Shown here: one piece after another, positions 3,883 through 14,886 of the stretch
Layout: each line of letters starts with the position of its first letter
Numbering within the stretch: position 1 is the first letter of the stretch
Assembly (NCBI GenBank): GCA_001802945.1
Contig: MHAK01000045.1
Span: 1,932 to 48,014 of the forward strand
Length of the DNA: 46,083 nucleotides
DNA from: Ignavibacteria bacterium RIFCSPLOWO2_12_FULL_56_21
GTDB taxonomy: Bacteria; Bacteroidota; Ignavibacteria; UBA10030
Direction: 5' to 3'
Notes under the pieces: model-generated
The model's database searches: none
What the model was told of the DNA's origin: nothing
What the model saw: only the letters and a program-made list of their open reading frames with translations
Translations under genes and position numbers: made by a program

Positions 3883-4563
3883 CTATTGCCGGGAATCGAC
3901 GGGGAGTGACGCGGCGGGCGGAACCGACGAAGCCTTTGCCGCTTCGCGGCGAGCATACCTTCCACGGACAAACACCACGATCCTGTATCCCAGCAACACA
4001 GCGACGATGGCGCCGTACGTTAGCGGACGTTGAAGGTCCGCTTTCACAAGCCACAGGTAATGGATCACGCCGCAGATGGCGGTGACATACACCAGGCGAT
4101 GGAGTCGTTTCCAGTTCTTTCCCCCGACCCACTTCGTCATTCGGTCGGTCGACGTGAGGGCGAGCGGCAGCATGAGCGACCATGCGGTGAAGCCCACGAT
4201 GATGAACCGCCGTTTCGTCAGGTCGTCCGCAATGTCCCCCCATTCGAAAAACTTATCGAAGTAGAGATACGTCATCAGGTGCATAGTCCCGTAGAAGAAC
4301 GCATAGACGCCCGACATCCGGCGAAGCCGGGAGAATCCGCTCCAACCGGTGATCTTCCGGAGCGGAGTCATCGTCAGCGTTATGACGATCATCCTCAGCG
4401 TCCAGGTCCCGGTTGTATCCGTGATATCGTCGAGCGGATTGACGGAAAGATTGTCGGTGTAGTAATTGTAGAGGAGGAAAAGGAACGGCGTCGCCGCCAG
4501 AAAGAACGCGAGCGGCTTGAGGAGGAAACGGAAAGAATCGAAGCGCCGAGGGGGTGAAGCCAT
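3883..4563 (-). CDS. msrQ: MsrQ, heme-binding membrane subunit of methionine sulfoxide reductase
   Basis: A 226-residue integral membrane protein of the ferric-reductase-like transmembrane family. It fits MsrQ (YedZ), which passes electrons from the quinone pool to periplasmic MsrP for repair of oxidised methionines. About five or six hydrophobic helices are visible. The likely heme-ligand histidines are in YGTMHLMTYLYF and in LHRLVYVTAICGVIHYLW. Family-typical segments include MTPLRKITGW and RRMSGVYAFFY. The length matches the usual ~200-220 residues. It follows msrP with a 14-bp gap, the standard msrPQ order. The C-terminal ~25 residues are basic and poorly conserved. Confidence 0.92.
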   Translation of the reverse strand: MASPPRRFDSFRFLLKPLAFFLAATPFLFLLYNYYTDNLSVNPLDDITDTTGTWTLRMIVITLTMTPLRKITGWSGFSRLRRMSGVYAFFYGTMHLMTYLYFDKFFEWGDIADDLTKRRFIIVGFTAWSLMLPLALTSTDRMTKWVGGKNWKRLHRLVYVTAICGVIHYLWLVKADLQRPLTYGAIVAVLLGYRIVVFVRGRYARREAAKASSVPPAASLPVDSRQ

Positions 4564-4577
4564 TACTCTCTCCGCCC

Positions 4578-5525
4578 TCAGTAGTTCTGTTTCAGGTCCA
4601 TGCCTGCATACATCGAAGCCACCTGTTCGGCATAGCCATTGAACGGCAGCGTCTTCCGCTTTCCGAACTCTCCGATCCGCCGTTCAGTTTTCTGGCTCCA
4701 TCGGGGATGGTCCACGTCGGGATTGACGTTCGAATAGAACCCGTATTCGTTCGGCGCCGCGATGTTCCATGTCGTCGGAGGTTCCTGTTCGACGAACGAG
4801 ATCCGGACGATAGATTTGATCCCTTTGAACCCGTACTTCCAGGGAGTCACCAGCCGCAACGGAGCGCCATTCTGATTCGGGAGGTCTTTGCCGTAGAGAC
4901 CCGTTGCCAACAGCGTAAGCGGATGCATCGCCTCGTCCATGCGCAATCCTTCCACATACGGCCATTGCAGGTACGGACGCCGTTGTCCGACCATCTCGTC
5001 CGGCCGATACACCGTCTCGAACGCCACATACTTCGCTTTCGGCAAAGGCTGTGCTTTCTTCATAATGTCCGCAAGCATCACGCCGCGCCAGGGAATAACC
5101 ATGGACCATCCTTCGACGCAGCGCATGCGATAGATCCGGTCCTCCTGTGTCAGCCCTTTGAGCAGATCGTCCAGTGCGAAGGTTGCCGGCTTCTTCACAA
5201 GTCCGTCAATTTTCACTGTCCAAGGCCTTGGCTTGAAGCTTCCTGCATTCTCCTCCGGATCGCTCTTGTCCGTGCCGAATTCGTAAAAATTGTTGTACGT
5301 CGTAATCTCTTTGAAGGTGCTCGGCTTTTCGTCCGTGTCATTTGGACCCTTCTTTCCTTGAGGCCATCGGTCCTGCGGGGGAACTACGCCTCCCCCCAGC
5401 AAGGACGGCGATACCATGCTCACGCCGGCAAGCCCAACCATGCCCAGCCATGATCGGCGGGTATAATACTGCGATTCGGGCGTGATTTCGGAGGAAGGGA
5501 CCCTGGGGATTTTATTGAAAGACAT
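4578..5525 (-). CDS. msrP: MsrP, periplasmic molybdopterin methionine-sulfoxide reductase catalytic subunit
   Basis: A 315-residue molybdenum-cofactor protein of the sulfite-oxidase fold that reduces methionine sulfoxide in periplasmic proteins. A twin-arginine signal is present ([15 protein letters not shown]), so it should be exported folded by Tat. The Mo-ligand cysteine is in [13 protein letters not shown], a family hallmark, and [20 protein letters not shown] is the conserved cofactor-binding stretch. The start is supported by a strong AGGAGG eight bases upstream. It is the first gene of the msrPQ pair, upstream of msrQ. Confidence 0.93.
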
Positions 5526-5659: not shown

Positions 5660-7264
5660 TCACACCTTCTCCTGCTTCCACCATCGCGTAACAACCTCCT
5701 CGATCTTCGTCCTCGCTTCGCTCTGTTTCCACTTCTCATAGAACTTGATATCGGCCGAGTCGGGTTCCGGGCTCGGGAAATCGATCTGCACCCGCAACGG
5801 CATCGAGATCGCATCTCCGACGATCAGCGATTCCCCCTGCCTCAGCGAGGGAAGCACGTCGGTCAGACTCGCAAACGTGTCCGGCACCAGCTTGCTCACG
5901 TAGGCCTGATCGAGCGGGTTCGTCAGACGGAGGATGACGTAGTTATTGCATTGCGACAAGATCGTCTCGGAGACCTCCACCGGACGCTGGCTGACGACCA
6001 TGCAGCTCACACCGTATTTGCGCCCCTCCTTCGCGATCCGTTCGACCGTTCGCCGCGCGGCCGTGGTCGATGTGCCGCTGGCCGGCAGATAGTTATGCGC
6101 TTCCTCGAACACCAGGAGAATGGGGAAGTCGCGTCGGTTCGGATTCCAGAAGTTGAAGTCGAAGATCATCCTGGCCAGCAGCGATACGATCGTATTCACG
6201 ATGTCGAATGGAACGCCGCTCAGGTCGAGAATAGTCACTTGCGCCGACCCGTCCGCGCCAAGGATCTTTGACAACAGGTCGTTCAGCGACGACGACGTGA
6301 TGTATTTCTTCGGACGGAACATGAATGCGTAGCGGGGGTCGTTCAGTTTGCCGTCGAGACGCACCAGGAACCGCGTGAACTTGCCGTAAAATGGGCCTTC
6401 CTTCGATCCGCCCCCCATCGTGATCTTCTCCGTGTCCATGTATTGCATCTTCGCCCGAATCTCGCTCAGGTCGAAGTAGACAGGCGTGTCGATCGTGATC
6501 AGGGTGGACATTTCCGGGTTCTTCCCCTTTTTCGATGCAACGACGAGGTCCCGAAGCACGGTGATCTGGCTCGAGGCATTCTCGTCCTTTTCATCCACGA
6601 ACATTTCACGAAGCTCGTCGAAGTTCATCAGCCAGAACGGGAGCTCGAACTCCGCAATGTCCAGATGATTGCAGTTCCCCTCGAACGCCTTCTCGTATTC
6701 GTTGTGGATGTCGAGGATGATGATGTTCGTATCGGGGTACTTCGTCACTTTTTGGAGGATGGACGCGACCGTGCACGATTTTCCCGAGCCGCTGGAGCCG
6801 AGGACGGCGATGTGCTTGCCGAAGAATTTGTTCGCGTCCAGATAGGCCCGCTGGTTTTCGAACAGCGACACGAGCCCGACCGAAAATCCGTAGCGCTGGA
6901 AAACCGAAAAGGCGACGGCGAGGTCGCCGTCTTCGGCGATGTAGACGGGCGAATCGACGACGGGGAACACGGAAACGCCGCGCTCATAGCGTCCTCCTTT
7001 AACCGTTCCGATGAGCGATGCCATCATCCGGTATCGCTGCGCAGGCTGGCCGTTGATCTCGACGTCCTCCTTGAGGAAATCGGAGACCATACCGATGAGC
7101 ACGAGCGACCCCATTGGTATGAGGACATACGTGCCGATCTGTCCGATGAAGTACGTCTTGCCGTTCAGGTCGCGTTTGAGAGACTTGATGTTGGCGTCGA
7201 TGAGAATATCGATCGTGCCGGTGGAGACGTGCTGCACGAGACCGATGAATTTTTGCTCTACCAT
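5660..7264 (-). CDS. HerA-like ATP-binding protein (DUF87/COG0433)
   Basis: A 534-residue ATPase of the HerA/FtsK superfamily, predicted to be a ring-forming DNA translocase. Residues ~1-115 look like the HAS beta-barrel. Walker A is GSSGSGKSC (~156-164) and Walker B is ILLVFEEAH (~382-390). The conserved GRKYGVSCMVVSQRP segment lies between Walker B and the C-terminal clamp. HerA proteins usually partner with the NurA nuclease in end resection, or with SIR2 or DUF4297 effectors in phage defence. No such partner is adjacent here: upstream is a signalling phosphatase (80-bp gap) and downstream the msr pair. The DNA function is therefore family-based inference. Confidence 0.85.
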   Translation of the reverse strand: MVEQKFIGLVQHVSTGTIDILIDANIKSLKRDLNGKTYFIGQIGTYVLIPMGSLVLIGMVSDFLKEDVEINGQPAQRYRMMASLIGTVKGGRYERGVSVFPVVDSPVYIAEDGDLAVAFSVFQRYGFSVGLVSLFENQRAYLDANKFFGKHIAVLGSSGSGKSCTVASILQKVTKYPDTNIIILDIHNEYEKAFEGNCNHLDIAEFELPFWLMNFDELREMFVDEKDENASSQITVLRDLVVASKKGKNPEMSTLITIDTPVYFDLSEIRAKMQYMDTEKITMGGGSKEGPFYGKFTRFLVRLDGKLNDPRYAFMFRPKKYITSSSLNDLLSKILGADGSAQVTILDLSGVPFDIVNTIVSLLARMIFDFNFWNPNRRDFPILLVFEEAHNYLPASGTSTTAARRTVERIAKEGRKYGVSCMVVSQRPVEVSETILSQCNNYVILRLTNPLDQAYVSKLVPDTFASLTDVLPSLRQGESLIVGDAISMPLRVQIDFPSPEPDSADIKFYEKWKQSEARTKIEEVVTRWWKQEKV

Positions 7265-7345: not shown

Positions 7346-8578
7346 TCATTCCACGCGTTTAACGACAACCACCGTCTTATCATCTGCCGGCTCTGCCAAT
7401 CGCTCGTGCGTGCGCACATCCACCATCAGTCGCTCGCAGAAGTCGCGCGACGACAGCTCGTGATGAGCCTCGAGAAATCTGTGCAGCCTCGGTTCTCCAT
7501 ACTCCCGACCATCAGGGTCGCGTGCTTCGGAAATGCCGTCCGTATAGATGACGAGCATATCGCCGACGGCGAGGATTGCATTCTCCACCCGGAAGGTCTC
7601 TTGCGGAAAGGGTCCCAAAATCTGTCCAGTCGGCTTGAGCTCTTCGAGCGCCTTGTCCGCCACGTGCCAAACGAGCGGGCTGTTGTGGCCTGCGTTCGAA
7701 TACAGTATAACACCTCGGGCATTGTCGGTCAATTCCAGGAAGAACATCGTGACAAACTGTTCTTCCGTGAAGGACCGGTGGACGAGCTTGTTGATGCGGG
7801 TCATGAGCGTGGAGATCTTCATGTGATGCGAGATTCCCATGCGGATGCCGCCGACGACATACAGCGCCTGGGCCGCGGCGCTGAAGCCTTTGCTGGCAGC
7901 GTCTCCGACCACTATCGACAGCCGGTCCGGATCGTCCTCCGTTTTTACATAGTCGAAGAAGTCGCCCCCAACGATGCGGGCGGCCTCCGAAACGCCATAG
8001 ATGTCGTAATGAAAGAACCGGCGTCCGGGATCGGGCAGGACGCTCTGCTGAATCGACCTTGCTTTGTCGATGTCCTTTTCCAGCGCTTTCGCACGCAGCT
8101 CGATCTTCCGATTGCGCAGCGAGTTCGTGACCGCGATCGAGATGATGTTCAGGTCCGACAGGATCGACTGATCGAGTGCATCGTAATTAAAGGCGAGCAC
8201 GTACTGGTAGACCGTTCCGTCACCCCACGCCGTCTTCTCGCCGACCCCTGTGGCCGAATACTTGACGATCCCTTTGCGGATCAGATACCGGTCCGTCTCA
8301 TTGGCGAGTATCGACCGCTGTTCTGCCAGCCACTGGAAGACGGGGTATTGCGAGACGGGAATCTTGTACCCGGATTCGAGCCTTTCGATCTCGCCAATCT
8401 GATGGATAAGCTTGTACGATTCCGCCGACGGCTCATATTGCCAGATCCGCCCGCCTTTGATCTGGATGTCCGGACTCTTGACGATCTCGTTGACGACGTG
8501 CTTGAGCAATTCCTTGTCGGTACGGAATTGGTCGGAGCCGAACGATTCGATGGTTCTATACAGCCTACGTAAGTTCAT
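7346..8578 (-). CDS. SpoIIE/RsbU-type PP2C serine/threonine phosphatase
   Basis: A 410-residue protein with an N-terminal region (~1-170) resembling a GAF-like sensor, a short coiled linker (ALEKDIDKARSIQQSVLPDP) and a C-terminal PP2C domain of the SpoIIE/RsbU class. IQQSVLP marks the usual start of this phosphatase domain. Metal-ligand aspartates are in GGDFFDYV, VGDAASKG and YTDGISEARD, and the domain ends with DDKTVVVVK. Such proteins dephosphorylate anti-anti-sigma factors to control partner-switching. No STAS or RsbW-like partner lies in the window, so the target is unknown. No membrane segment was seen, so it is probably cytosolic. Confidence 0.88.
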   Translation of the reverse strand: MNLRRLYRTIESFGSDQFRTDKELLKHVVNEIVKSPDIQIKGGRIWQYEPSAESYKLIHQIGEIERLESGYKIPVSQYPVFQWLAEQRSILANETDRYLIRKGIVKYSATGVGEKTAWGDGTVYQYVLAFNYDALDQSILSDLNIISIAVTNSLRNRKIELRAKALEKDIDKARSIQQSVLPDPGRRFFHYDIYGVSEAARIVGGDFFDYVKTEDDPDRLSIVVGDAASKGFSAAAQALYVVGGIRMGISHHMKISTLMTRINKLVHRSFTEEQFVTMFFLELTDNARGVILYSNAGHNSPLVWHVADKALEELKPTGQILGPFPQETFRVENAILAVGDMLVIYTDGISEARDPDGREYGEPRLHRFLEAHHELSSRDFCERLMVDVRTHERLAEPADDKTVVVVKRVE

Positions 8579-8820
8579 TACGGGGTGAAGCCAGGTGATT
8601 GCGAATTTCGAATTGTCAACTTGCCCGCCGAACTCGCGTCAGTGAGGCAGGCGGGTTGCGAATTGCGGATTAGCATGCATACGGCTGCTCGTGATTAAGC
8701 AATTGAAAATTGACGTTTGACTATTCAAAGTTTCATTCTTGAAAGTTGGCAGTTGATAACCTGCCCGGCATGTGAGTTATGTGAAGGCAGGCGGGTAGTC
8801 AGTTTGTTTCTCTCGACTGC
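8579..8820. repeat. intergenic region with two GC-rich stem-loop repeats
   Basis: No gene is visible. Two related stem-loops are present: 8617-8658 (TTGCCCGCC pairing with GGCAGGCGGGTT across a loop containing GTCAGTGA) and a variant at 8758-8798. A third copy in reverse orientation is at 24719-24758. Copy 1 and the reverse complement of copy 3 match over most of 42 bp, differing mainly in the loop. The first copy is embedded in degenerate AATTTCGAATT/GCGAATTGCGGATT words like those at 5550-5586 and 7300-7330. Confidence 0.55.
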
Positions 8821-9153
8821 CTAGCAGGATGCGGAAAAAAGGGCGTTAGAAGAATTTCACGCAATGCCGCTATGACCGCAATGGACGCAAAGGGAGAAAA
8901 TTCACTAAAATCTCATTGCGCCCGCCCTCGGCCGAGCCCGGCGGTTCGACCCTTCGGTGAACTCAGGGTCGGCTCGCTCACCGTCCCGAGCCCGCCTACG
9001 GCGGGTAAACTCCGTCGAGGGACCTCGGGCGAGGCCGGGGAACTTTGCGTAGTCGCCCTTCGACTTCGCTCAGGGCGACCCTAAGCTTGCCGAAGGGTCG
9101 CAGTACATGGCCCTTTGCGTCATTGCGTGATCTCTTTTTCCGCAAGCTGCTAG
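8821..9153. mobile_element. MITE-like element with terminal inverted repeats bounded by CTAG
   Basis: The 333-bp segment has imperfect terminal inverted repeats of about 19 bp. The left end reads CTAGCAGGATGCGGAAAAA and the right end, inverted, CTAGCAGCTTGCGGAAAAA, so 17 of 19 match. CTAG at each end may be a target duplication. No transposase frame is inside, so it is a non-autonomous element or a heavily decayed insertion sequence. Just inside the ends are periodic CGCAATG/ACGCAAAGGG arms (about 8860-8894 and 9111-9128). The centre contains GC-rich repeats, including CCTTCGACTTCGCTCAGG (9058-9075) and variants of CCCTTCGG. It ends 15 bp from the stop codon of the triheme cyclase gene. Confidence 0.65.
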
Positions 9154-9168
9154 TGGCTACTGCATACT

Positions 9169-11334
9169 TCATGCGCGCTGTACGGCTTCAAAGACCTTCA
9201 CCGGCTCTCTCTTCCCCTTCACCGCCATCGGTTCGAGTTCGTTCAGGAGACACCATTCGGGAGTACCGAGGGCTCGCGCGGAGGTTTCTGACAGCAGTAC
9301 TTGTCCCGGTTTCGCGGCGCTGCAAAGCCGGGCGCCGAGATTCACGGCGTCACCGATGACAGTATAGTCCATTCGCTCCACACTCCCCATGGCCCCCATC
9401 ACCATATCTCCGGTATTGATGCCAATGCCGACCGAGATTGAGTCCATTCCCCGGTCCCGCATGATAGCCGGCAGCTCCCGCTGGATATCCAGGGCCGCAC
9501 GAACGGCTCTTTCCACCATTCCTTCGCCCCCGAACACAGCAACGAGCTCGTCCCCCACATACTTGTCGATGTCCCCGCCATGGCGTTTGACAATGCCCGC
9601 CTGGGCGGCAAGACTGGCGTTGAGCATGGCGACGACCCGTTCCGGCTCCGAAACCTCTGAGAATGCCGTGAACCCGCGAATGTCCGAGAAGAACACCGTT
9701 GCGGTCCTTCGCGATCCGCCGAGCTTCACGCCGGACAGGTCGCTGCTCCGGACGGCGTCGATCGTTTGCTGGGACACGAATTTTTCGAGATGGAACCGTT
9801 CACGCAGGCCGCGAACCATCTCGTTGATCCTCTCGGCCAGTCTTCCGATCTCGTCAAGGGAGGCAACTTCGGCACGTGACGAAAAGTCGCCAGCGCCGAC
9901 TCGCTCCGCCACTTGCCCGATCGCATGCACCGGGGTGACGACGACACGGCGCATGAACAGGCGGATCACCAACCAGACGAAAAGGATCGTCACCACACCC
10001 GCGCCTGCAGAACGGAGCTTATTGGTCGCAAGCCGGGCGTTGATCTCCGACATCGACACGCTCACTTCGATCGCCGACCGCACCTGATGGTTGGAGCTGT
10101 GACACGCGTAACACCGGCTCTCGTTCGGAATGTGGACGATCCGAACGAGACGTTGAGCTTCGTCCTCCCCTTCCATGAATTCCAGCGTGTCTTTGTTGGC
10201 GATGACCGACTTCAACTCCGGGCGCGTGCGCGGGGGCGGATTGAGAAAACGCTCGAATCCGTTGGCGTCATAGACTCGCAATGTCTGCAGGACGTCGAGC
10301 GAACGAAGCTCATCCATGTAGAACCGGGCAGAGCCGGCCCTGCCCACGAGCATGATGCTCCGGAATCCTTCGCGGATCGCCGCTTGCATCGCCTCCGTGA
10401 ACTTGTGTTCAACGTCTTCCGCGAACGACGCAAGCGTGGCCGCGTCGAATTCCACCATCATGATACCGCGCATAGGAAAGCGGGAGCCGTGGCAGACCTG
10501 ACACCGGTCTTCATTGACGAGCGGAACAAAAACGCGCACGACCTTCCCCCGCATCTCATAGACGTGGGCCGACGTCTTTGGCGCGAGAATGTCCAGTAGC
10601 CGGGTGTCGGGGATCTCGTAATCTTCCGGACCGAAATGCAGGAATCCCATCCGGTCGTAGACCTGGACGAGGCGGACTCCGGGGATTGTGTGTGAGGCGG
10701 CGATGAGTGTGTCCATTTGATCGCCGTTGCCGCCGAGCATGATCGTACGGAACGCGGTAGCGATCGTGTTGCCGAGCGCTCCCGCCATGCCGCGCACCGA
10801 CTTCGTCGCCGACATCGAGCTCACGGCGGAAGGACGGAGTGCAACCTGGAGCGCGCCGCGCATCGGCTCTTTGGGGTCATGACATCGCCAGCATTCCGGT
10901 CGGTTGTGGAGCGGTTCGTATAGGGTGAATACGCTCCCCGAGTCGGCGTGGTTCATTGCGGAACGGGGCGAGCGGGTGGATATGACGTCGGCGACCATCG
11001 GGTCGTTGACGTTGGTATTCATTCCCTCTCCCTCGCGCAGAAAGACCTCCCGTCCGAAGCGGTCGTAGATCGTGATGTCGACAAACCGGACATTCTGGCG
11101 GACGTCGTTCACCATTTCCACCGCGTATGGTGCTTTGCCGGTGAGCATGACGTTTCGAATACCGGCGGCGAGCGTTTCTGTGGAGATTCGGAGCTTTTCC
11201 CGCTGTTGAATGATGAGGGCTTCGGATTCTCTCTGGATGGTGAGAATGACGTACGTGCCAAACCCGACCACCAGGACAAGAATGATCAGGAGGAGGATCT
11301 TCAGTTCGAGGCGGGACTGGATTGCGCGGAGCAC
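9169..11334 (-). CDS. membrane adenylate cyclase with three tandem c-type heme sensor repeats
   Basis: A 721-residue sensor cyclase predicted to make cAMP in response to a periplasmic redox or ligand signal. Helix 1 spans ~12-33. The periplasmic part holds three CxxCH heme c motifs, CWRCH (148-152), CQVCH (278-282) and CYACH (408-412), each exactly 130 residues apart. Each motif lies at the end of a similar unit containing an (I/F)R-x-(V/I)ML helix and a VYDR/YD-x-G segment. Helix 2 is ~443-461, followed by a HAMP domain (~462-515) and a class III cyclase domain (~540-715). All expected catalytic residues are present: metal Asp551 and Asp595, substrate-selecting Lys591 and Asp662, and Asn665 and Arg669. 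Lys plus Asp favours adenylate over guanylate. The start is GTG with no obvious Shine-Dalgarno. The signal sensed is unknown; heme sensing is inferred from the motifs. Confidence 0.9.
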   Translation of the reverse strand: MLRAIQSRLELKILLLIILVLVVGFGTYVILTIQRESEALIIQQREKLRISTETLAAGIRNVMLTGKAPYAVEMVNDVRQNVRFVDITIYDRFGREVFLREGEGMNTNVNDPMVADVISTRSPRSAMNHADSGSVFTLYEPLHNRPECWRCHDPKEPMRGALQVALRPSAVSSMSATKSVRGMAGALGNTIATAFRTIMLGGNGDQMDTLIAASHTIPGVRLVQVYDRMGFLHFGPEDYEIPDTRLLDILAPKTSAHVYEMRGKVVRVFVPLVNEDRCQVCHGSRFPMRGIMMVEFDAATLASFAEDVEHKFTEAMQAAIREGFRSIMLVGRAGSARFYMDELRSLDVLQTLRVYDANGFERFLNPPPRTRPELKSVIANKDTLEFMEGEDEAQRLVRIVHIPNESRCYACHSSNHQVRSAIEVSVSMSEINARLATNKLRSAGAGVVTILFVWLVIRLFMRRVVVTPVHAIGQVAERVGAGDFSSRAEVASLDEIGRLAERINEMVRGLRERFHLEKFVSQQTIDAVRSSDLSGVKLGGSRRTATVFFSDIRGFTAFSEVSEPERVVAMLNASLAAQAGIVKRHGGDIDKYVGDELVAVFGGEGMVERAVRAALDIQRELPAIMRDRGMDSISVGIGINTGDMVMGAMGSVERMDYTVIGDAVNLGARLCSAAKPGQVLLSETSARALGTPEWCLLNELEPMAVKGKREPVKVFEAVQRA

Positions 11335-11479: not shown

Positions 11480-12730
11480 TCACAAATCCCGCATCACCCT
11501 GAACCTCTCCCCCTCCCATCCCGGAAACAGCCTCTTGTCATCCGCCAATCCAAGATGTGCTCCCGCCACTTCGGCAAACAATGACCGGAAATCCACCGTG
11601 ACAGGCAGATCACGGGCGTCTTCCAGCGCTTCGGGAACCAGCGGCGGAATCGTTCCGTGCACCATGCCCCCCGTAACCTGATTTCCGAGGATGAACGAAC
11701 ATGAGGCTCGCCCGTGGTCCGTCCCTCCGGACCCATTCTCCCGCACCGTTCGGCCGAACTCTGTCATCGTCATCAGAACGATGCGGTCCTGGAACGAAGC
11801 CATATCCCACCAGAAGGCGGAGATCGCAGCGGACAAATCGCGCGCACGCGTTGCAAAGGTGCCGTTCGCCGTCCCCTGCTGCACGTGCGTGTCCCATCCC
11901 CCCGTTTCAGCAAAGCCGACTTCGAGACCCACGTCTGCCTTGATAAGCTGAGCGATTTGCTTCAGGGAATTTCCCAGGGGGGAAGAAGGATATGTCACAC
12001 CCGGAGACGGACGATACTGCCGGACATTCGACGCCGAAAGAAGCTTGACCGCCTCGAAACTCCCTGTCCCGGCATTATGAAGCAGGGATTCGGTCGTTTC
12101 TCTGTACATCGATTCCAACGTCCCTCCCGCCGAGGACATTTCGCTGACTCCGAATTCCTCAAGCCGGGAAATCGCCAGCGCCGGCTCTTCACCGTTCAAG
12201 CTCCGAGGCATCGCTGGCGTCATGGCAACTGCACGGAACGGAGTCGCTTCATGGCCGAGCAATCCACACGCGCGGTTGAGCCATCCGGACGACATCCCCT
12301 TGCGTCCCGGCGTCCCCGTTTCCATATAATCCTGCGCGTCAAAGTGTGATCGTGTCGGATCCGGAGATCCCACGCCGTGCACAATCGCAAGTCGTCCCTC
12401 TTTATAGAAGGGAAGGAATGGACTAAACGCCGGATGAAGTCCGAAACCGTTGTCAAGATCGAGCAGCTTCTGCTCTCCAGCAGATCCGGCGGCGGTCATC
12501 GCCAGCCTGGGGCGCAATCCGGTCAGATGTGACTCCTCGACCGGCGGCACGGCCATGAGCCCGTCCATTGCTCCACGCTGAAAAATGGCGATGAGGATCG
12601 GACGCTTTTCAAACAATCCGGGAGCCGGTGTCGCAAAAACGAGACGATTCAGGAACAATGGCGTTCCGCCCACGCCGAGCGAACAGAGGGCCAGGCCTGA
12701 AGACTTGAGGAAGATCCTGCGGGTGTGCAT
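11480..12730 (-). CDS. DUF1501 family protein
   Basis: A 416-residue protein of the DUF1501 family, which has an alkaline-phosphatase-like fold but no established reaction. It opens with a probable Tat-type signal (HTRRIFLKSSGLALCSLGVGG), so it should be exported. Family motifs are visible: SHFDAQDYMETG, GGWDTHVQQG and TEFGRTVRENGSGGTDHG, which would supply the metal-site residues. The ATG at 12730 was chosen over a frame opening at 12757 because it puts the twin arginines at the right distance. It lies just downstream of a DUF1800 gene, a very common pairing, with a periodic inverted repeat in the 119-bp gap. Confidence 0.9.
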   Translation of the reverse strand: MHTRRIFLKSSGLALCSLGVGGTPLFLNRLVFATPAPGLFEKRPILIAIFQRGAMDGLMAVPPVEESHLTGLRPRLAMTAAGSAGEQKLLDLDNGFGLHPAFSPFLPFYKEGRLAIVHGVGSPDPTRSHFDAQDYMETGTPGRKGMSSGWLNRACGLLGHEATPFRAVAMTPAMPRSLNGEEPALAISRLEEFGVSEMSSAGGTLESMYRETTESLLHNAGTGSFEAVKLLSASNVRQYRPSPGVTYPSSPLGNSLKQIAQLIKADVGLEVGFAETGGWDTHVQQGTANGTFATRARDLSAAISAFWWDMASFQDRIVLMTMTEFGRTVRENGSGGTDHGRASCSFILGNQVTGGMVHGTIPPLVPEALEDARDLPVTVDFRSLFAEVAGAHLGLADDKRLFPGWEGERFRVMRDL

Positions 12731-12751
12731 GCTCAGCCTAGATAAATATCG

Positions 12752-12842
12752 GTCCACGAAGCATCACGAAGCGACACGAAAGGTCCTTGATTTGCATCTC
12801 ATCTTCTTCGTACTACGTGGTCCTTCGTGTACCTTCGTGGAC
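12752..12842. repeat. periodic inverted repeat, CACGAAG type
   Basis: The left arm reads GTCCACGAAG then CAT-CACGAAG-CGA-CACGAAA, and the right arm inverted reads GTCCACGAAGGTACACGAAG then GAC-CACG. Each arm is a run of 10-nt units beginning CACGAAG, and the two arms pair around a ~25-nt loop. It lies between the DUF1800 and DUF1501 genes, so it would be transcribed as a long hairpin if these form an operon. Confidence 0.75.
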
Positions 12843-12849
12843 ATGTTTT

Positions 12850-14814
12850 TTATCTGCGTTGAAACTCCGGCGATCCTATGATGAGTCCTACAATATGTTG
12901 TTGCATTGTCGGAGGATTCGATTGGTCCATCGTCAAACGCCTTCGTCGCGCGTTTCCTTTCTTCGTCACCAGCGGAAGTCCATTCTCATCCATGAACATC
13001 TCTGGTTCTTCCCCTTCATCCCCGACTGCGTGTTCCTCTTTCTCTTCTATACGAGAACGCAATTCCGTGGACCGAACGCTGCGCTGAAGAAGCGCTACGG
13101 TCGAATCGGCACTTCGCTCAGGCAACAATGCCTTTGTGTAGGCTGCCAGCGCTTCATCGGGAGATCCGGGCTCGCGACCATCCGTGAGCAACTCGAGGTC
13201 GACCCTCACACCCTGTACCCTTCCCGATGCCAACTGAAACCCATAATTCATTCTGTTCAGAAGCGATCCGCTGTTGATCCATTGCGAAGCCCGGTCAGGA
13301 TAACCGGTTGGAGCCTGACAAGCATACATTGGCTGACCCATGCGCGAAGTCCAGGAGACAATGCCGCGAGACGTCTCAACGTGTGCGCCCAGACCCCTTA
13401 CGGCACTTATCGCCAGCTCGAACGGCGACTTGATCTTCGCTCGTCTCGATGCCGGCGACCAAAACTCCGGCGATTCCACGAGCACATGCATCACAAGCCC
13501 GATATCGCCCTTGGACGCCAGGAAAATCTCAGCCATTCGATCGATCAGCGCCTTTGGAGGATCGTCAGACACGAACCGAATTGCGATCGAGCGTGAAATG
13601 AATTTCGCAGTGGCAGGATGACGGGCGAGCATCTCAAGGACCCGCTCACCATCTTCAATACCGCCTCCAGACGGAAACGTCACGCCAAGGATCGCCTTTG
13701 ATCCCGCGTCATGCGCGTCTGCGCGGAAGAGAAATCCGCCATCCTGCACAAAACCGACGGCCCTCCCTCGATCGATCCGCTGTTTGAGCTGATCCCCCTT
13801 TTGTCCGGGGGGCATGATTGTCCATCCGGTGAACGCCCGCGCCACTTCTACGACATCCTCCTGCGTGTATCCGCCATCCACGCCCAGCGTGTGCAGCTCC
13901 ATGAGTTCACGCGCGTAGTTCTCGTTGAGTCCGCGGCGGCGTTGCGCCTGCTTGGGCAACTTCTCCATCGCTTCACGCGCTCGTTCCGCATACTCCTTTC
14001 GCGCACGATCGACCGCTGCACGATTTACTCTCCCGCGTAATCCGGGCTCTTCTTCCATCCCCCGGAATTCCATTTCCATCGTCGTCAGCGCGCCTTCCCC
14101 CGCCGTCGATTGCGCGTTGTCCAAATACGTCAGCATTGCGGGATGTTTCGCCGTTGCCTTCAAGAGGTCCACGAATCGTCCGGCGGCGTTTGGACGTATT
14201 GCATCCCGCTCATACGAAAGGACGTACGGACGAGATTGATTGTCCGACAAGGAGACGTTGAAATGATTGAACCAGAATTCTGTCAGAACCTCGCGCAATT
14301 GATTCTCGGACGAGTACGCGCGAAGCGTCTTCTGCGCAAGTAATTGTCCGGTCAATTCCTGGACAGGTCGAAATCCCTTCTCTTTACTGAAGTCCCGGAG
14401 CTTGTTCTGTAGCTCCTCTCTGTCGGTCGCTTCACCACGCTGAATGATCCCCTCCTCGTAAGCCGCTTGCAACACAAAGCCGGTATTGGGATATGTGCGA
14501 GCTATCTCCTCTGCGGATTGTGATAGTGCCGAATACGAAGTGAGGCGATCATTGAGGTCGCGATCGGGAAGCCTCCCGGTCAACTGCTCGTCGAACCACC
14601 GGTCCAATCCCGTGCGAGCGACGGATTCGATGTCTCCCGGTCTCGGTCCATACGTGAAACGATCAAGCAAATGCGCGGCCGCTTGACGTTCCGTCAGGCC
14701 AAACCGGGCATACGGAAACCGTGTCCGCTCCTGTGAAGAACCGGAAAGAAGGAACAGCAGGACAAGACTGAAGGCAAGAATGAGAGGAAACGTTGTTCGC
14801 CGGCGAATCCGCAT
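12850..14814 (-). CDS. DUF1800 family protein
   Basis: A 654-residue protein of the DUF1800 family, whose biochemical role is not established. It has a signal peptide (PLILAFSLVLLFLLSGSSQ). The family core is clear: HLLDRFTYGPRPGDIE near the N-terminus, VLTEFWFNHFNVS, then ENYARELMELHTLGVDGGYT and VVEVARAFTGWTI. The C-terminus is charged and low in conservation (EEKEEHAVGDEGEEPEM). The ATG at 14814 fits the signal peptide better than an upstream frame opening at 14871. It is upstream of a DUF1501 gene, the usual partner. Confidence 0.9.
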   Translation of the reverse strand: MRIRRRTTFPLILAFSLVLLFLLSGSSQERTRFPYARFGLTERQAAAHLLDRFTYGPRPGDIESVARTGLDRWFDEQLTGRLPDRDLNDRLTSYSALSQSAEEIARTYPNTGFVLQAAYEEGIIQRGEATDREELQNKLRDFSKEKGFRPVQELTGQLLAQKTLRAYSSENQLREVLTEFWFNHFNVSLSDNQSRPYVLSYERDAIRPNAAGRFVDLLKATAKHPAMLTYLDNAQSTAGEGALTTMEMEFRGMEEEPGLRGRVNRAAVDRARKEYAERAREAMEKLPKQAQRRRGLNENYARELMELHTLGVDGGYTQEDVVEVARAFTGWTIMPPGQKGDQLKQRIDRGRAVGFVQDGGFLFRADAHDAGSKAILGVTFPSGGGIEDGERVLEMLARHPATAKFISRSIAIRFVSDDPPKALIDRMAEIFLASKGDIGLVMHVLVESPEFWSPASRRAKIKSPFELAISAVRGLGAHVETSRGIVSWTSRMGQPMYACQAPTGYPDRASQWINSGSLLNRMNYGFQLASGRVQGVRVDLELLTDGREPGSPDEALAAYTKALLPERSADSTVALLQRSVRSTELRSRIEEKEEHAVGDEGEEPEMFMDENGLPLVTKKGNARRRRLTMDQSNPPTMQQHIVGLIIGSPEFQRR

Positions 14815-14886
14815 AGAAGTATGGATGTACTTCGAACAGGATGGTTTAATACCGGTGCATGTGAAGGGCAATCATTGAAGAGGTTG

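Follow-up and report, generated by a model that had tools for sequence, protein, structure and literature searches.

The locus examined here raises the question of what a bacterium may read in its periplasm with three heme-c sites placed in series ahead of a single adenylate cyclase. The window, i.e., the whole stretch of DNA analysed, comprises 46,083 nucleotides of Ignavibacteria bacterium RIFCSPLOWO2_12_FULL_56_21 (GCA_001802945.1, contig MHAK01000045.1, positions 1,932-48,014 of the forward strand) and carries a gene for a triheme adenylate cyclase. From the N- to the C-terminus, the protein displays a transmembrane helix, three tandem heme-c sensor units, a second transmembrane helix, a HAMP domain, and a class III cyclase domain (Table 1). 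The two hydrophobic segments (residues ~11-33 and ~439-469) bracket the sensor region and the HAMP domain follows the second, as in a membrane receptor. A first-pass annotation of the sequence had described CxxCH motifs at residues 148, 278, and 408, exactly 130 apart, as well as a helix and a HAMP domain leading into a complete class III cyclase. Both descriptions fit the protein, as the motifs stand at these positions, Pfam places HAMP at residues 460-512 and Guanylate_cyc at residues 544-711, and six cyclase residues are intact. The best explanation, with a probability of about 0.62, is a His/Met ligand-switch sensor of nitric oxide (NO) and/or redox state that would set the level of cyclic AMP (cAMP), with NO somewhat ahead as the signal.

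By sequence comparison, the three sensor units are homologous and thus true repeats. PF21563 (Mcp40H-20_sensor, the heme-c sensor of class 40H chemoreceptors) matches the region in three stretches with 85.9 bits (Pfam cut-off 27), and every unit passes this cut-off when taken alone, while PF11845 matches the sensor region with 31.5 bits (Pfam cut-off 24.1). In BLASTP, the units of the window protein are 23-29% identical to each other (E 1e-10, 6e-9, and 7e-10); when profiles of the units from 17 proteins are compared with each other, the probabilities are 99.6-99.8. These results agree with the triplicated heme c sensor proposed in the first-pass annotation. The same annotation had asked whether the units might be unrelated folds, yet in the full AlphaFold2 model, with a predicted template modelling score (pTM) of 0.46, all units share the order helix, helix, strand, helix, two strands, CxxCH, strand, each motif lying between strands. 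The fold of units 1 and 2 is seen in this full model only, while unit 3 was also modelled singly from an alignment of 18 units, with a predicted local distance difference test (pLDDT) score of 84.3. Using Foldseek against the PDB, the best matches of the unit 3 model are GSU0935 and GSU0582 of Geobacter sulfurreducens (3b42, E 6.6e-9), followed by the WalK Cache sensor, with a root-mean-square deviation (rmsd) of 13-16 for the two Geobacter proteins. By sequence, too, GSU0935 and GSU0582 are the solved structures most similar to unit 3. Using VIA-align, the top matches are WalK of Staphylococcus aureus (entered as YycG; Z 14.1, rmsd 2.8 over 127 residues) and other Cache domains, and GSU0935 and GSU0582 are not among the 50 matches listed. 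Perhaps this is explained by their crystals being helix-swapped dimers, as stated in the available part of PMC3460858.

Conservation of the putative heme and catalytic sites was inspected in 21 proteins, comprising 17 complete proteins from the window's order and four from Myxococcota (L133-L136), of which L133 is cut by the locus edge behind all residues checked. The three CxxCH motifs are invariant in all of them, as is one methionine per unit (Met63, Met199, and Met328), and Met328 aligns with Met60 of GSU0935 in the PDB alignment. Because every heme motif and methionine is kept in two phyla, units 1-3 appear to be under selection as working sites. The cyclase domain matches Guanylate_cyc with 79.6 bits (Pfam cut-off 21.9), and residues D551, D595, K591, T658, N665, and R669, located by alignment with 2w01 and 3r5g, are likewise invariant (21/21). 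We take D551 and D595 to be the metal-binding aspartates, K591 and T658 the Lys/Thr pair of the adenine pocket, and N665 and R669 the Asn/Arg pair. The best solved relatives of the domain are the named adenylate cyclases 6fht, 2w01, and 3r5g CyaB, and the protein is predicted to make cAMP.

A ligand-switch mechanism can be outlined from this build. As expected of a class III cyclase, the protein would form a homodimer, here a membrane receptor with two transmembrane helices and a periplasmic series of three heme-c Cache modules. In every module, the heme would be covalently held by CxxCH, with the histidine of the motif as proximal ligand, and the conserved methionine located where helix 1 ends would serve as a labile distal ligand of the reduced heme. 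Binding of NO (or carbon monoxide, CO), or oxidation of the heme, would free the methionine and move the helical part of the module, and this movement would pass via unit 3, the second transmembrane helix, and HAMP to the cyclase, such that the cAMP level would report periplasmic NO and/or redox state. In the full model, the last strand of unit 3 continues straight into the second transmembrane helix, and only unit 3 does so. Because it leads directly into this helix and HAMP, unit 3 would be the natural coupling unit, while units 1 and 2 may modulate it. Three modules could thus give a graded or multi-threshold response. A precedent for the switch is Met60 of GSU0935, which, as described in the available part of PMC8396549, is displaced from the reduced heme by CO and NO and released on oxidation.

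Two lines of evidence favour NO as the signal. According to the accessible part of a preprint (PMC12889525), a heme-c Cache protein linked to HAMP shows tight NO binding (dissociation rate constant koff 6.25e-4 per s) and does not form a stable complex with O2. The other line comes from single-heme relatives, nine of 12 of which in Spirochaetota adjoin genes of the cytochrome P460 family. The triheme sensor profile is matched in 37 of 296 genomes of the phylum of a Spirochaetia locus (L024), and none of the 20 Spirochaetota loci examined from these 37 genomes has three CxxCH motifs in one chain. Instead, 12 of the 20 encode single-heme sensor cyclases (11 with Guanylate_cyc by Pfam and L176 by motif only), and the others include chemoreceptors and histidine kinases. 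The sensor parts of the 12 cyclases match the triheme-derived profile, yet none reached the PF21563 cut-off where Pfam was run. A P460-family protein with a CxxCH motif also adjoins the gene of L179, where no cyclase domain was detected, and all ten CxxCH neighbours tested exceed the PF16694 cut-off of Pfam (L164, L168, L170, L171, L172, L175, L176, L178, L179, and L181). The nine cases are not all independent, since L024 and L175 denote one gene and L172 seems nearly identical to L176, and the flanks are short, so the remaining three of 12 carry no information on absence. As the available part of PMC10318465 has it, members of the P460 family either oxidise hydroxylamine or bind NO, the latter in the case of cytochrome c'-beta. 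A single-heme cyclase and its P460 neighbour could be a response pair for NO or hydroxylamine.

The three-unit build recurs within the window's order and extends beyond it. Among 98 genomes of the order, the sensor region is matched in 26, and 25 of these carry the triheme cyclase gene (17 complete and 8 fragments), while the remaining one has a weak match in a 504-residue frame. All 21 order genes with a whole sensor region (the 17 complete ones and four cut behind the sensor) encode three CxxCH motifs. In 282 genomes drawn from Myxococcota, PF21563 is matched in 16, and four triheme cyclases are present (~34-36% identity to the window protein; gaps between motifs of 114-129), which rules out a lineage-restricted oddity. 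A search of other genomes, as proposed by the first-pass annotation, has thus returned the architecture in 25/98 and 4/282 genomes. In addition, the Myxococcales locus L035 encodes two units and, where its contig ends, the beginning of another. PF21563 is matched in 15 of 296 genomes drawn from the window's phylum, and four of these have triheme proteins, all of the window's order and including the window's own; this search scores units singly, and weak units may be missed. The sensor region has no match in a plasmid collection. The exact 130-residue spacing, in turn, does not hold as a property of the build, since both gaps are 130 in only four of the 17 complete order proteins and in none of the four from Myxococcota. 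With gaps of 114-137 among the 21 proteins, exact periodicity as a structural rule is ruled out.

Phylogeny of the units suggests a triplication that is old within the order. In a first tree of 56 units, those of the order group by position over organism, with five label changes against a shuffled mean of 29.5, suggesting a triplication that predates the divergence of families f1, f4, and f5. This grouping and the 23-29% identity rule out recent copy-paste repeats. In this first tree, deep forks remained open and the bootstrap was not settled; the units of L035 stood on long branches, and single-heme units fell among unit 1 rows. The cross-phylum tree, which took in 11 of the 17 order proteins and the four from Myxococcota, groups position 1 across phyla (89/86; 88% of bootstrap trees), while positions 2 and 3 do not group across phyla (0% each). 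A single old triplication before the split of the two phyla is possible, but with positions 2 and 3 ungrouped the tree shows neither a common origin nor two separate ones.

Attachment of heme c is probable in this organism, as its genome encodes a System I cytochrome c maturation cluster with CcmB, CcmF, a Cytochrom_C_asm protein of CcmC size, and an ABC ATPase; the first-pass annotation had named missing maturation genes as grounds for doubt. ResB has no match in the window's genome. The same genome encodes six cNMP_binding proteins, which could be the receivers of cAMP. Three further proteins of this genome (L040, L041, and L042) each have one CxxCH motif followed by HAMP and a histidine kinase ATPase domain. 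No Pfam model matched their sensor parts, yet heme-c sensing in this genome may extend beyond the cyclase.

Several observations weigh against the ligand switch, or against NO as its signal. Methionine ligation of the heme in all three units is something we infer from the conserved positions, and in the Geobacter proteins, as far as the available text of PMC8396549 describes them, one of the two monomers of GSU0935 has Met60 as sixth ligand and the other has water, and both hemes in the GSU0582 crystal have water rather than methionine. The same source gives low potentials of -251 mV for GSU0935 and -156 mV for GSU0582, and the authors of the work on these two proteins read them as redox sensors. 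The full AlphaFold2 model, with a mean pLDDT of 74 and the pTM given above, does not fix how units and hemes are arranged. In the window and 18 further triheme loci, no P460-like neighbour of the cyclase gene was seen, so the genomic clue to NO comes from the single-heme relatives alone; the sole other CxxCH frames of at least 90 residues in these surroundings are three of 100-146 residues. Finally, the neighbours of the cyclase vary by lineage, being PP2C, HerA, MsrP, and MsrQ in f1, HerA alone in f5, and none of these in Myxococcota.

This variation becomes evident when loci are compared. Of the 25 cyclase-bearing order genomes, 12 belong to f1, 12 to f5, and one to f4. The order cyclase, PP2C, HerA, MsrP, MsrQ is kept in all eight f1 loci with enough contig (window included), and HerA followed by the cyclase is found in all six f5 loci compared (of 12 genomes). 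The single f4 locus has neither arrangement, and none of the four genes stands beside the cyclase in the four Myxococcota loci. The PP2C-HerA-MsrP-MsrQ block is also kept in 6/6 f1 loci without the cyclase (of eight such genomes with MsrP). MsrP is encoded by 10 of 12 f1 genomes with the cyclase versus 8 of 20 without it, yet by only one of 12 cyclase-bearing f5 genomes and not by the f4 genome. A functional operon of the cyclase with MsrPQ is thus weakened as a candidate, since cyclase-less loci keep the block and some cyclase carriers lack MsrP.

These neighbours invite an explanation in which hypochlorous acid or peroxide would turn the distal methionine into its sulfoxide, no longer able to ligate in the same way, and MsrPQ would reset the sensor. 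With msrP as the third gene downstream, MsrP and MsrQ both over their NCBIfam cut-offs, the f1 order constant, MsrP in 10/12 cyclase-bearing and 8/20 other f1 genomes, and the methionine invariant in every unit, such a sensor is conceivable. Yet the block persisting in cyclase-less loci, the near absence of MsrP from f5 and f4 carriers, and the Myxococcota genes without MsrPQ beside them make it very unlikely. The least probable alternative, to which hardly any weight can be given, is that the cyclase domain is degenerate or makes cyclic GMP, so that cAMP is not the output; the six presumed active-site residues are intact throughout the 21 proteins, and the closest solved relatives are adenylate cyclases by name.

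Two other explanations come closer to the ligand-switch sensor, and their probabilities overlap with its own, as it includes redox itself. The hemes could equilibrate with periplasmic electron carriers, such that oxidation state through release of the methionine, rather than a gas, sets cAMP, and three hemes of different potentials would widen the range. This purely redox-driven sensor is favoured by the Geobacter work, whose authors, in the available part of PMC8396549, take GSU0582 and GSU0935 for redox sensors that differ in potential, and by units that have diverged by position, which would allow such differences. It is nevertheless doubtful, since the tested HAMP-linked heme-c Cache protein acts as an NO sensor (available part of PMC12889525) and the P460-family neighbours of the single-heme cyclases point to N-oxides. 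Alternatively, a single unit may do the sensing, likeliest unit 3 by its place at the second transmembrane helix, with units 1 and 2 as spacers or structural hemes. Single-unit sensor proteins do exist with chemotaxis, kinase, and cyclase outputs, and unit 3 alone runs into the membrane helix in the model. Still, a spacer has no need for a heme motif and methionine that are invariant in units 1 and 2 across two phyla at ~34-36% identity, and this explanation is regarded as unlikely. An extension of the ligand-switch sensor can be put forward tentatively, at somewhat less than even odds, namely a receptor kept in at least two phyla whose three heme sites are unequal in potential or NO affinity and feed jointly into one cyclase for a graded, multi-threshold, or coincidence output, perhaps with electron transfer between hemes. 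If true, this would be a periplasmic multiheme sensor for cAMP signalling.

In general, the sensor units resemble sCache_heme domains (DUF3365/Tll0287; PF21563, PF11845; GSU0935 and GSU0582) in fold, in a CxxCH motif near the last strand, in histidine as proximal ligand with a methionine at the place of the GSU0935 distal ligand, and in being followed by a transmembrane helix and HAMP. However, the sCache_heme proteins described in the available parts of these sources have one unit, whereas three stand in series on a cyclase here, and GSU0582 and GSU0935 are chemoreceptors. The single-heme sensor cyclases of Spirochaetota (e.g., L024, L164, L168, and L172) share a related sensor, HAMP, and a catalytic domain, but have one CxxCH motif and, in 9/12 cases, a P460 neighbour not seen beside triheme genes. 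Similarly, 6fht, 2w01, and 3r5g CyaB share the catalytic residues and, by alignment, the fold of the cyclase domain, yet their matched stretches have no c-type heme sensor. Multiple c-heme motifs in a listed signal transducer also occur in G. sulfurreducens, according to the available part of PMC8396549, but GSU0591 and GSU0599 have two motifs each and are listed as a cytochrome and a two-component protein, respectively, a comparison made by description only.

The novelty claimed in the first-pass annotation holds in part. The legend of Figure 2 in PMC12889525, the part of that source available, lists Guanylate_cyc among the frequent partner domains of heme-c Cache, so the association with class III cyclases is already known. 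The word "tandem" does not occur in the main text of PMC12889525, the available part of PMC4822843 holds nothing on tandem heme units, and no account of a three-unit heme-c sensor cyclase was found in titles and abstract starts of open-licence papers; the three-unit form alone looks new. It adds a multi-unit form, present in Bacteroidota-related and Myxococcota lineages, to the periplasmic heme-c Cache sensors that were defined recently, and the chain of three modules offers a natural system for studying how several heme thresholds sum into one second-messenger output. The conserved build would probably let cells convert periplasmic NO or redox state into a cAMP signal, and the link of the single-heme versions to P460-family genes provides a testable NO hypothesis.

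Table 1 Features of the triheme cyclase gene and its linked neighbours (window coordinates; residues refer to the cyclase; TM, transmembrane helix; ORF, open reading frame)
Feature	Positions	Strand	Basis
Triheme adenylate cyclase gene, GTG start, 721 amino acids	9169..11334	-	ORF, Pfam, motif scan
First TM, residues 11-33	11236..11304	-	Hydrophobicity; model helix H8-63 runs on as helix 1 of unit 1
Sensor unit 1, residues ~34-170, heme-c Cache fold	10825..11235	-	PF21563, homology to units 2 and 3, model
Sensor unit 2, residues ~171-301	10432..10824	-	PF21563, homology to other units, model
Sensor unit 3, residues ~302-433	10036..10431	-	PF21563; PDB 3b42 E 1.1e-8, 3b47 E 3.2e-5; single-unit model
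CxxCH 1, CWRCH, residues 148-152	10879..10893	-	C, C, H invariant 21/21
CxxCH 2, CQVCH, residues 278-282	10489..10503	-	C, C, H invariant 21/21
CxxCH 3, CYACH, residues 408-412	10099..10113	-	C, C, H invariant 21/21
Met63, candidate distal heme ligand, unit 1	11146..11148	-	Conserved 21/21
Met199, candidate distal heme ligand, unit 2	10738..10740	-	Conserved 21/21
Met328, candidate distal heme ligand, unit 3	10351..10353	-	Aligns with GSU0935 Met60; 21/21
Second TM, residues ~439-459	9958..10020	-	Hydrophobic segment ~439-469; model helix 429-480
HAMP domain, residues 460-512	9799..9957	-	Pfam, E 1.3e-12
Class III adenylate cyclase domain, residues 544-711	9202..9705	-	Pfam; alignments to 6fht, 2w01, 3r5g
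SpoIIE-type phosphatase (PP2C), next gene downstream of cyclase	7346..8578	-	Linked in family f1
HerA-like ATPase	5660..7264	-	Linked in f1 and f5
MsrP, periplasmic methionine sulfoxide reductase catalytic subunit	4578..5525	-	467 bits, NCBIfam cut-off 207; linked in f1
MsrQ, heme-binding membrane subunit	3883..4563	-	173 bits, NCBIfam cut-off 130

Further observations concern the surroundings of the gene. The best NCBIfam model for the HerA-like ATPase is the anti-phage-associated HerA, at 438.7 bits below the cut-off of 850, so the protein is not a member of that family; in f1 and f5, HerA adjoins the triheme cyclase or stands one gene off, and the gene order differs. Directly upstream of the cyclase gene lie adjacent DUF1501 and DUF1800 genes (window 11480-14871), neighbours not found in the loci of the 21 relatives compared. 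A promoter and terminator scan returned three promoter-like sites, all on the plus strand, and nothing useful for the minus-strand cyclase gene. The spacer between cyclase and phosphatase (8579-9168) measures 590 bp, compared with 43-242 bp between the matched parts in seven relatives from f1. Within this spacer lie two 30-nucleotide direct repeats, at 8585 and 8642, as well as an inverted repeat that is imperfect (8947-8971 / 9076-9100).

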